A DNA stretch of 11,940 nucleotides. Origin: Microbacteriaceae bacterium (GTDB lineage: Bacteria > Actinomycetota > Actinomycetes > Actinomycetales > Microbacteriaceae). The stretch spans positions 1 through 11,940 of the forward strand of contig RFQD01000024.1 of the NCBI GenBank assembly GCA_009925875.1. Reading direction: 5' to 3'. The position numbers and the translations under genes are program-made. The notes below the pieces were generated by a model, which ran no database searches, was not told the origin of the DNA, and saw only the letters and a program-made list of their open reading frames with translations. Shown piece after piece: positions 2,147-4,470 of the stretch (position 1 is the stretch's first letter; every line of letters begins with the position of its first letter).

Positions 2147-3514
2147 CTATTGCTGTGCAAAGTCGTTGAACCGAGACAAGTGACCCGTGAATCCGACGAC
2201 GACGGTCGCGGTGGGACCATTTCGGTGCTTGGCCACAATGAGGTCCGCCTCGCCGGCGCGAGGATGATCGCGATCGTACGCGCCTTCTCGATGCAAAAGA
2301 ATGACCATGTCCGCGTCCTGCTCAAGGGATCCCGATTCGCGAAGGTCAGACAGAGCCGGTTTTTTGTCCGTTCGTTGTTCCGGTCCACGGTTTAGCTGAG
2401 ACAAGGCAACGACCGGTACTTGGAGTTCTTTCGCGAGCAACTTCAAGGCACGACTAAATTCACTCACTTCCTGCTGACGGTTCTCGACCCGCTTGCCGCT
2501 CGTCATCAGCTGAAGGTAATCAATGACAACCAGTTTGAGACCAACTCGTTGCTTCAGTCGCCGACATTTGGCTCGGATTTCGACGAGCGTCATGTTGGGG
2601 CTGTCATCGATATAGAGCGGCGCCTCCGCGATGCGCCCACGTGTCGCGGCAATCGCTGTCCAGTCATTGTTTGCAACCGTGCCCTTGCGCATGTTCGACA
2701 ACGGCACAGACGACTCGGCCGCAAGCAGGCGCATGGCAATCTCACTCTTTCCCATTTCGAGCGAGAAGAAAATCGTGGGTTGGTTGTATCGCACACTTGC
2801 ATGACGCGCGAAATCGAGCGCGAGCGTCGACTTACCCAACGCAGGTCTGGCGGCGATGATGACAAGCTGTCCCGGGTGCAGGCCATTTGTGAGCTCATCG
2901 AGATCCCGAAATCCCGTGGGGACACCAATCATGCTTCCATCGCGATGACGCGCGGTCTCGATTTCTTCAATTGCCGCATCGACAGCCGTCGTAAGCGGAA
3001 CGTAATCTTCGATTTCGGCAGAGCCGGTCACCGAGTAGATCTCCGCTTGTGCCGAGTTAACCAAGTCTTGCGGTTCGCCTTCGCCGGAGTATCCCATTTG
3101 CACGATGCGCGTTCCAGCATCCACCAGTCGGCGGAGAAGCGCGCGCTCCGCGACAATGCCCGCGTAGTACCCGGCGTTCGCCGCCGTCGGAACGAGCGCG
3201 GTCAGGGTGTGCAAGTAATCTGCTCCACCCGCCCTCACGAGAGATCCCGTTTTTGTTAGTTCATCGGTGACGGTGATTGCGTCGGTCGGCTCACCGTGTG
3301 CGTACAGATTCAGAATGGCGTCGTAGATGACCTCGTGCTTGGGCACATAAAAATCTGCCCCTCGAACAACCTCAACGACGTCGGCGACGGCGTCTTTGCT
3401 CAATAACATGCCGCCCAGCGTGCTCTGCTCGGCGAGCACATCGTGCGGCGGAACACGCTCCCCCGGGGCCGAACCGCGCGAATCAGCGGGGGGAGGCAGA
3501 TGAGCGATTGACAT
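2147..3514 (-). CDS. dnaB: Replicative DNA helicase DnaB
   Basis: DnaB is the hexameric helicase that unwinds the replication fork and recruits primase. The 455-residue length is normal. The N-terminal primase-interacting domain is about residues 22-125 (AEQSTLGGMLLS at 28-39), followed by a linker and the RecA-like domain from about 195. That domain holds Walker A ARPALGKST (222-230), the SLEM motif (251-254), Walker B LVVIDYLQLM (328-337), ALSQLNRGPEQR (370-381) and the arginine-finger region SGSLEQDADMV (394-404), then VAKHRNGPT (427-435). These sites are uninterrupted, so there is no intein. The ATG at 3514-3512 follows an AAAGGGAG ribosome binding site. The gene is separated from rplI by 503 bp that contain DnaA-box-like repeats, suggesting its own promoter and possibly DnaA control. 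Two membrane protein genes follow closely. Confidence 0.98.
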   Translation of the reverse strand: MSIAHLPPPADSRGSAPGERVPPHDVLAEQSTLGGMLLSKDAVADVVEVVRGADFYVPKHEVIYDAILNLYAHGEPTDAITVTDELTKTGSLVRAGGADYLHTLTALVPTAANAGYYAGIVAERALLRRLVDAGTRIVQMGYSGEGEPQDLVNSAQAEIYSVTGSAEIEDYVPLTTAVDAAIEEIETARHRDGSMIGVPTGFRDLDELTNGLHPGQLVIIAARPALGKSTLALDFARHASVRYNQPTIFFSLEMGKSEIAMRLLAAESSVPLSNMRKGTVANNDWTAIAATRGRIAEAPLYIDDSPNMTLVEIRAKCRRLKQRVGLKLVVIDYLQLMTSGKRVENRQQEVSEFSRALKLLAKELQVPVVALSQLNRGPEQRTDKKPALSDLRESGSLEQDADMVILLHREGAYDRDHPRAGEADLIVAKHRNGPTATVVVGFTGHLSRFNDFAQQ

Positions 3515-3642
3515 CGTGGCTCCCTTTCTGATTTTTCATGGAGTTTCTAGCAGCGGGCTCCGACACTGTGCCTCTCCTGCTCGGCAACACTAGAAAGAAG
3601 CTCGACGTCTTCCCAAACCGACATGTGGATAAGTCTGTGTAT

Positions 3643-3655
3643 GACGCGCCGATAA
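3643..3655 (+). repeat. 13-bp direct repeat, copy 1 (GACGCGCCGATAA)
   Basis: It matches copy 2 at 3853-3865 (GACACGCCGATAA) at 12 of 13 positions. The copies lie 210 bp apart; copy 1 is inside the left part of the DnaA-box cluster and copy 2 lies beyond its right end. The function is unknown. Confidence 0.45.
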
Positions 3656-3705
3656 CTCGGCATCTACTGTTTATAACTTGTGGGCAATGTTGGGGATAAG
3701 CTGCG

Positions 3706-3743
3706 AAATTTTTCTCATTTTTAGCCTTCAATCAGGGATTTTA
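3706..3743. other. AT-rich segment inside the DnaA-box cluster
   Basis: 28 of 38 bases are A or T, in a window that is otherwise GC-rich. It contains runs such as AAATTTTT and ATTTTT and lies between the left group of DnaA-like boxes (to 3699) and the right group (from 3756). That is the position expected for a DNA-unwinding element. The role is inferred. Confidence 0.4.
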
Positions 3744-3852
3744 GGCAGATACGCGTGTGCATAACATTCAGTCTCAACGTTGTGTTTAACGTTGCCCCTG
3801 GCGCGGAGACCTGTGTATAGAAAACCCCTATGTGAGGCGATTAAAATCGTGC

Positions 3853-3865
3853 GACACGCCGATAA
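3853..3865 (+). repeat. 13-bp direct repeat, copy 2 (GACACGCCGATAA)
   Basis: This is the partner of the copy at 3643-3655, with one mismatch. It shares CCGATAA, which overlaps the GATAA end of a DnaA box but not its TGTG part, so it is not itself a good box. Confidence 0.45.
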
Positions 3866-3969
3866 GCCATTATTTTGTGCGTCCCGCGACTTGACAACGA
3901 CACAATCCACTCTCGGCTTTCCGGCGGCACAGGACGTTCGCATCGTCGACTCCGCCGTGGATTAAGCGA

Positions 3970-4003
3970 ATTCGGGCCCCCCTCTCATGAGGAAAGCCCG
4001 AAT
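3970..4003 (-). terminator. Terminator-like hairpin after rplI
   Basis: ATTCGGGC at 3970-3977 and GCCCGAAT at 3996-4003 form a perfect 8-bp stem. The loop contains a second small stem (CCTC-ATGA-GAGG on the minus strand). It starts 14 bases after the rplI stop. A smaller hairpin, AGTCA-N5-TGACT, covers the stop itself at 4005-4019. No clear U-run follows on the minus strand, so it is either a weak intrinsic terminator or an mRNA 3'-end stabiliser. It is the only candidate end for the ribosomal operon before dnaB. Confidence 0.5.
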
Positions 4004-4017
4004 CAGTCAACAACTGA

Positions 4018-4470
4018 CTACTTTGCCGCGACAACCTGAAGGGTGATGGTCGCAACCAAGTCCTCACGTAACCGAACCGTTGCCTCGTGGTCGCCCGTGA
4101 ATTTGATGGGCGACACGATTTCGATCTTGCGCTTGTCGATGTCTCCCAGTCCGGCCGCGGCAACGGCGGTTGCGATGTGGTCGGTTTTCACCGAACCGAA
4201 CAACCGGCCGTCGCGACCGACCTTGACCGACAACTTCACCTTTGCTGATTCCAGCTTGGCCTTCAACGCTTGCGCCTCTTCGAGGGTTGCCAGAGCGCGT
4301 GCCGTGCGTGCGGCACGAATCTGCTCGACCTGCTTCTCCCCGCCTCGCGACCACGCAACCGCGAAACCCTGAGGGATGAGATAGTTGCGCGCGTATCCAT
4401 TCTTCACGTCAACCACGTCGCCCGCGGATCCGAGGCCAGAAACCTCGTTCGTCAAAATAAGCTTGGACAT
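4018..4470 (-). CDS. rplI: 50S ribosomal protein L9
   Basis: L9 binds 23S rRNA near the L1 stalk and helps keep the reading frame. The 150-residue length is normal for the family. The N-terminal rRNA-binding domain carries the L9 signature around [17 protein letters not shown] (21-37). A long connecting helix follows (about 41-78) and then the C-terminal domain (about 80-147). The ATG at 4470-4468 follows TAAGGAG, so the Shine-Dalgarno sequence overlaps the rpsR stop codon and the gap between the genes is only 11 bases. It is the last gene of rpsF-ssb-rpsR-rplI, and a hairpin follows the stop. Identification is firm. Confidence 0.98.

Follow-up and report, generated by a model that had tools for sequence, protein, structure and literature searches.

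The dnaB locus and its upstream gap

The DNA analysed here, referred to as the window, is a complete contig (C147) of 11,940 bp from an assembly of 1.75 Mb that comprises 423 contigs and is 93.9% complete. Its minus strand carries rpsF, ssb, rpsR, rplI and dnaB in that order, the names being taken from the sequence and from gene order. DnaB is 97% and 93% identical to its counterparts in two genomes of the same genus. The closest named record is an actinobacterial MAG (97% identity), and most of the next-best named matches come from genera that we take to belong to the Microbacteriaceae. The relevant genes and the gap between them are as follows:

2147..3514, minus strand: dnaB, replicative helicase, 455 aa (open reading frame; matches in relatives)
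3515..4017, minus strand: rplI–dnaB gap, 503 bp, containing the putative regulatory region (delimited by the open reading frames and synteny)
4018..4470, minus strand: gene upstream of dnaB, presumably rplI (ribosomal protein L9), named from its sequence and gene order (open reading frame; tblastn query for synteny)

The original prediction placed a dense DnaA-box cluster in this gap, and a rescan recovered all of it within the 197 bp from 3624 to 3820: two exact boxes (at 3624 and 3756), five with one mismatch (starting at 3636, 3668, 3691, 3781 and 3812) and one with two mismatches (TTGCCCACA, at 3679). All eight are co-oriented and lie on the minus strand, from which dnaB is transcribed and on which they read as TTATNCACA. 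The elements of the gap are listed below from the rplI side towards dnaB, with offsets counted from box F:

3812..3820, minus strand: DnaA box A, CTATACACA, one mismatch; offset −188 (−188 to −191 recurs in relatives)
3781..3789, minus strand: extra box, TTAAACACA, one mismatch; offset −157, within the inverted repeat at 3775–3794
3775..3794, minus strand: inverted repeat CAACGTT-N6-AACGTTG, the first half of which is kept in the genus
3756..3764, minus strand: DnaA box B, TTATGCACA, exact; offset −132 (−132 to −134 recurs in relatives)
3725..3741, minus strand: CCCTGATT element between boxes B and C, where a CCTGRTCAG-like motif is conserved in relatives
3691..3699, minus strand: DnaA box C, TTATCCCCA, one mismatch; offset −67
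3679..3687, minus strand: weak box c, TTGCCCACA, two mismatches to TTATNCACA and one to TTRTNCACA; offset −55
3668..3676, minus strand: DnaA box D, TTATAAACA, one mismatch; offset −44
3636..3644, minus strand: DnaA box E, TCATACACA, one mismatch; offset −12
3624..3632, minus strand: DnaA box F, TTATCCACA, exact, promoter-proximal; reference offset 0
3587..3616, minus strand: predicted dnaB promoter P1 (TTGGGA, 18 bp, TAGTGT), starting 7 bp past box F (pattern match)
3544..3565, minus strand: PafBC-promoter-like element (TGTCGG, 10 bp, TAGAAA), from motif comparison

The start-to-start spacings of the boxes are, in order, 12, 32, 11, 12, 65, 25 and 31 bp. The spacing of 11–12 bp that had been attributed to several boxes is therefore found in three of the seven intervals, and two of these three require the two-mismatch box. 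Five of the seven stronger boxes carry a mismatch, which in two of them (TTATAAACA and TTATCCCCA) falls within the CACA core, so some boxes of the array may bind DnaA poorly.

Box density against chance

Allowing up to one mismatch, the window as a whole contains 14 matches where 3.06 would be expected, and none of 200 shuffles reached 14; half of these matches (7 of 14) fall on a single strand within the 197-bp cluster. Across the genome (1,745,965 bases), 10 boxes are exact and 317 sites match with no more than one mismatch, 174 of the 317 being on the reverse strand. The frequency of one match per 2,600 positions cited in the original prediction is correct for equal base frequencies, and the actual rate in this genome is about one per 11 kb per strand. 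At the genome's own rate, 0.020 boxes would be expected on one strand of a 197-bp stretch, compared with the seven that were found (Poisson term about 2e-16), in agreement with the claim of a density far above chance. A chance cluster can be ruled out by the shuffles, by the genome rate, and by the conservation in 79 loci and the class-wide counts presented below.

Conservation upstream of dnaB in relatives

We compared 109 dnaB upstreams, comprising the window's own, those of 29 relatives and those of 79 out of 80 named-record loci; the remaining locus (L108) was left out, as it begins inside dnaB. These upstreams are not all independent, since several come from congeners, and L016 and L045 have identical box lists and may represent one genome. 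Comparison across relatives, in line with a check put forward with the original prediction, showed that the boxes are conserved upstream of dnaB: the 220 bp upstream of the gene were strictly the box-richest stretch in 78 of the 79 named-record loci and tied in the other one (L080). In these 79 loci, the 400 bp before dnaB carry 10.8 boxes per kb versus 0.11 per kb elsewhere, and 297 of 341 upstream boxes were in the dnaB sense.

The positions of the boxes recur as well. Counted from box F, offsets of about −190 (A), −134 (B), −67 (C), −56 (c), −44 (D) and −12 (E) are found repeatedly in relatives, while those of the window are −188, −132, −67, −55, −44, −12 and 0, with the additional box at −157. 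Using bins of 3–7 bp in 30 upstreams, position A was occupied in 19, B in 14, C in 15, c in 11, D in 21 and E in 18, compared with 0–3 in seven 7-bp control bins placed between A and B. When three genomes of the genus were compared by eye, the boxes and P1 appeared as conserved islands, and the CAACGTT-containing stretch and the CCTGAT element were also conserved. In the same comparison, boxes D and E changed at the free fifth position and boxes B and C varied elsewhere too. The extra box TTAAACACA is identical in two same-genus genomes.

The boxes accompany dnaB irrespective of its neighbour. At least three boxes were present in the last 450 bp of all 27 upstreams in which rplI is non-adjacent or was not found, many of them from Microbacterium, and in 81 of the 82 in which rplI is adjacent, the exception (L023) having two. 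An element linked to rplI is ruled out by these 27 upstreams, all of which keep their boxes at dnaB. Similarly, the relative G003 has 6 boxes at dnaB although about 453 kb of the contig separate the gene from dnaA.

Several boxes deviate from the core, and two further conserved elements of the gap, the inverted repeat (3775–3794) and the CCTGRTCAG-like motif (3725–3741), are ones for which no binder could be named. Both points would suit a different regulator with a motif similar to that of DnaA. We nevertheless consider it very unlikely that the boxes are sites of such a regulator, given that those of relatives include TTATCCACA, TTGTCCACA and TTGTGCACA, the first two of which are tabulated as high-affinity DnaA boxes (PMC4285127), and that DnaA binding upstream of dnaB has been shown in mycobacteria (PMC7738170).

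Upstream boxes across the class

A class-wide set of 92 upstreams from 91 genomes and 44 families was hand-picked from matches with a visible dnaB start; five of the 92 belong to the window's own family, and the same-family loci L172–L176 and other genomes were omitted. Counting TTRTNCACA boxes with no more than one mismatch, the last 500 bp of these 92 upstreams contain 4.73 on average, whereas a neighbouring control stretch has 0.33 and shuffled sequences have 0.42. At least two boxes were detected in 88 of the 92 hand-picked upstreams and at least three in 82, and the family average is at least two in 41 of the 44 families. The misses are L251 and L261, with no box, and L253 and L256, with one each.

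Locus L261 comes from G017, a same-family genome of 0.9 Mb, in which the 500 bp upstream of dnaB contain no TTRTNCACA box with at most one mismatch. Nine loci of family f34 (L183, L184, L189, L191, L193, L195, L196, L198 and L200), which we take to be Streptomyces and whose genomes measure 7–10 Mb, have a recurrent box layout of their own upstream of dnaB, with offsets that differ from those of the Microbacteriaceae. An inverted TTATCCACA lies at the dnaB-proximal end of the array in all nine.

A predicted DnaA-responsive promoter of dnaB

Helicase loading is a limiting step of initiation, and in the literature covered we met no account of how helicase supply relates to DnaA activity in actinomycetes outside mycobacteria. 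In the upstreams compared here, the array is coupled to a predicted promoter. A pattern of the P1 type after box F (7–8 bp, TTGNNN, 17–18 bp, TANNNT) was detected in 76 of the 109 upstreams, where Markov shuffles give an expectation of 0.04, and is absent in the tested form from the other 33; the count depends on the anchoring rule, being 73 of 109 with the first rule and 76 of 109 with the second. Since every box of the window is located upstream of the −35 element of P1 and none over P1, the array would occupy the place of an activator.

Given the box cluster above chance upstream of dnaB, and the promoter predicted (by pattern only) beside the boxes and before the gene, the cluster is quite probably a DnaA-responsive upstream regulatory array of the predicted dnaB promoter. 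In the mechanism that we propose, DnaA would bind an array of six to eight boxes, all in one orientation and at set distances upstream of dnaB, ending in a strong box 7–8 bp before the −35 element of the housekeeping-type promoter P1, and bound DnaA would change, most likely raise, dnaB transcription according to DnaA level or nucleotide state. In this mechanism, we infer DnaA binding in the gap, the activity of P1 as a promoter and the sign of the regulation.

Control of dnaB by DnaA was one of the options raised in the original prediction, and it is supported by the conservation of the boxes, by their coupling to the predicted promoter and by published binding and expression data from mycobacteria. 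The original prediction knew of no site of this kind at rplI–dnaB; DnaA binding upstream of dnaB has, however, been published. In Mycobacterium tuberculosis, IDAP-seq with 150 nM DnaA revealed five highly enriched regions, including Rv0057 upstream of dnaB, and homologues of the same five regions were bound in M. smegmatis ChIP-seq (PMC7738170). In mycobacteria, binding upstream of dnaB has thus been seen in vitro as well as in vivo. The mycobacterial DnaA mutant I282T showed less binding upstream of dnaB and lower dnaB expression (PMC7738170). The dnaB gene of Caulobacter likewise carries predicted DnaA boxes, and it is assigned to the DnaA regulon (PMC8203912, citing Hottes 2005). The mycobacterial Rv0057-region site is like the window's array in that it lies on the same side of the same gene; however, it is experimentally bound, whereas the window's array is predicted, and box spacing and promoter layout are not described in the parts of PMC7738170 covered. 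Caulobacter dnaB shares the predicted upstream boxes and the DnaA dependence, although it belongs to a different phylum. The kind of site is already known, and we have not seen the layout of array and promoter described in the literature covered, which was open-access only.

Activation is the likelier sign on account of the published mycobacterial binding and expression data and the Caulobacter regulon data. DnaA can activate or repress, and its bound nucleotide can alter the strength of the effect (PMC8203912), which leaves some room for repression of dnaB or for a sign that switches with the nucleotide. We regard this as unlikely, considering that no box of the window extends over P1 or lies downstream of its −35 element, and that in the I282T mutant less binding goes with less dnaB expression (PMC7738170). 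The array of the window suggests that the DnaA sites of mycobacteria extend to a distant family and, being conserved and recurrently spaced from a promoter, it constitutes a directly testable element.

Comparison with PafBC promoters

The element at 3544–3565 resembles the promoters that PafBC uses in the RecA-independent damage response, for which the motif has been given as TGTCGG-N10-TA-N3-T (PMC8151990) and as tTGTCRgtg-8-TannnT (PMC5656591). Of the 109 dnaB upstreams, 8 have the strict motif within their last 200 bp, against 0.03 expected, and in L058 the strict match and P1 share their −10 element. In a relaxed form, whose last base may be T or C, the motif was present in 39 of 109, against 0.26 expected; most of these matches end in C and so depart from the published motif. 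A far looser pattern, TGTC[AG][GC], was found within 160 bp in 84 of 109 upstreams, a count that is weak evidence for a PafBC element because 25 of 109 are expected by chance. A PafC-type HTH match is present in the window's genome, and dnaB of M. tuberculosis is induced by mitomycin C in a partly PafBC-dependent manner (PMC8151990). The window's own copy ends in A and fits neither the strict nor the relaxed form, so the case for PafBC as a possible second regulator of this dnaB is weak.

A possible origin of replication

The original prediction also suggested that the rplI–dnaB gap might be a displaced or second replication origin. In favour of this, it resembles the dnaA–dnaN gap in box number and AT content: with TTRTNCACA, it has 8 boxes compared with 5 in the dnaA–dnaN gap, and the 40-bp AT maximum is 0.70 at the former versus 0.72 at the latter. 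However, the dnaA–dnaN order is the usual one in the window's genome, and a displaced origin is unlikely because the dnaA–dnaN gap (363 bp, C365) has boxes of its own on both strands, five with TTRTNCACA at no more than one mismatch and four under TTATNCACA. Over 60 kb in six relatives, the box-richest 300-bp stretch was at dnaB in two, tied in two and at dnaA–dnaN in two, with dnaB second. A search for dnaA-trio-like runs gave no hit in either the rplI–dnaB or the dnaA–dnaN gap and does not tell the two apart.

GC skew in the window is mostly negative on either side of the site, and the cumulative skew goes on falling to both sides of it. A skew test on six relatives, hand-picked from 59 and covering 60 kb each, was mostly uninformative: the minimum was at dnaB in none of the six and at dnaA–dnaN in one (G032), and the other five were noisy. 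Thus, the rplI–dnaB gap does not appear as the sole or main box cluster at a skew minimum, which is how an oriC would be recognized. A displaced or second origin was rejected as the main reading, since the dnaA–dnaN gap has its own boxes and the skew minimum was never at dnaB in this noisy test, and we give it almost no credence.

Possible titration and a possible wider DnaA circuit

Several DnaA boxes outside the origin are also a feature of sites of the datA, DARS and DBC kinds, and they are found in datA of Escherichia coli and in the clusters of Bacillus subtilis and Streptomyces coelicolor (PMC5742627). In the last two species, such clusters are said to repress untimely initiation (PMC5742627). 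The array might similarly be a titration or nucleotide-exchange site that soaks up or resets DnaA once it has been duplicated shortly after initiation, its position at dnaB being secondary. Given that dnaB is located 16.4–21.2 kb from dnaA in six hand-picked relatives, the site would be doubled early. We regard such a role as possible, with reservations, and as compatible with the DnaA-responsive promoter rather than exclusive of it. The datA-like site suggested in the original prediction would account for a box cluster outside the origin. Titration alone, however, predicts neither the recurrent offsets relative to P1, nor the mostly shared orientation in the dnaB sense, nor the fact that the boxes follow dnaB, both where rplI is not adjacent (27 of 27) and at some 453 kb from dnaA (G003). 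In contrast to datA and the B. subtilis and S. coelicolor clusters, the window's array stands at a recurrent distance from a predicted promoter.

A second conserved cluster bears on this question. The 10 exact boxes of the genome include the two at dnaB, one upstream of dnaA (C365:5719) and one by crgA (C397:5435), 35 bp past the crgA stop. Among the best 30 of 56 matching genomes (loci L270–L299), 23 have one or more boxes just downstream of crgA (C397:5182–5443 in the window's own genome, G000; locus L283), 20 have two or more and 7 have none, with 0.17 boxes per 200 bp in control stretches. In the four relatives inspected, this cluster is flanked by the converging ends of two genes, so it is unlikely to be part of a promoter. 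This favours titration and shows that a box cluster can be conserved in this family without serving as a promoter element.

The cluster downstream of crgA may match the DnaA site of the mycobacterial Rv0010c–Rv0011c gap, Rv0011c being presumably crgA. In M. tuberculosis, this gap is among the five DnaA regions (PMC7738170). We tentatively envisage an ancestral actinomycete node in which an ordered DnaA array and, in some lineages, a damage-inducible PafBC-type promoter would jointly set helicase supply. Together with the clusters upstream of dnaA, at dnaA–dnaN and downstream of crgA, this node could form an origin-proximal DnaA circuit extending from mycobacteria to the Microbacteriaceae.

Other observations on dnaB genes

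Two dnaB-like genes were found on separate contigs of G171 (L204 and L205), with boxes upstream of each. In G036, G039, G042, G043 and G057, the dnaB matches are split inside open frames of 889–1451 aa, as we would expect for inteins in dnaB.
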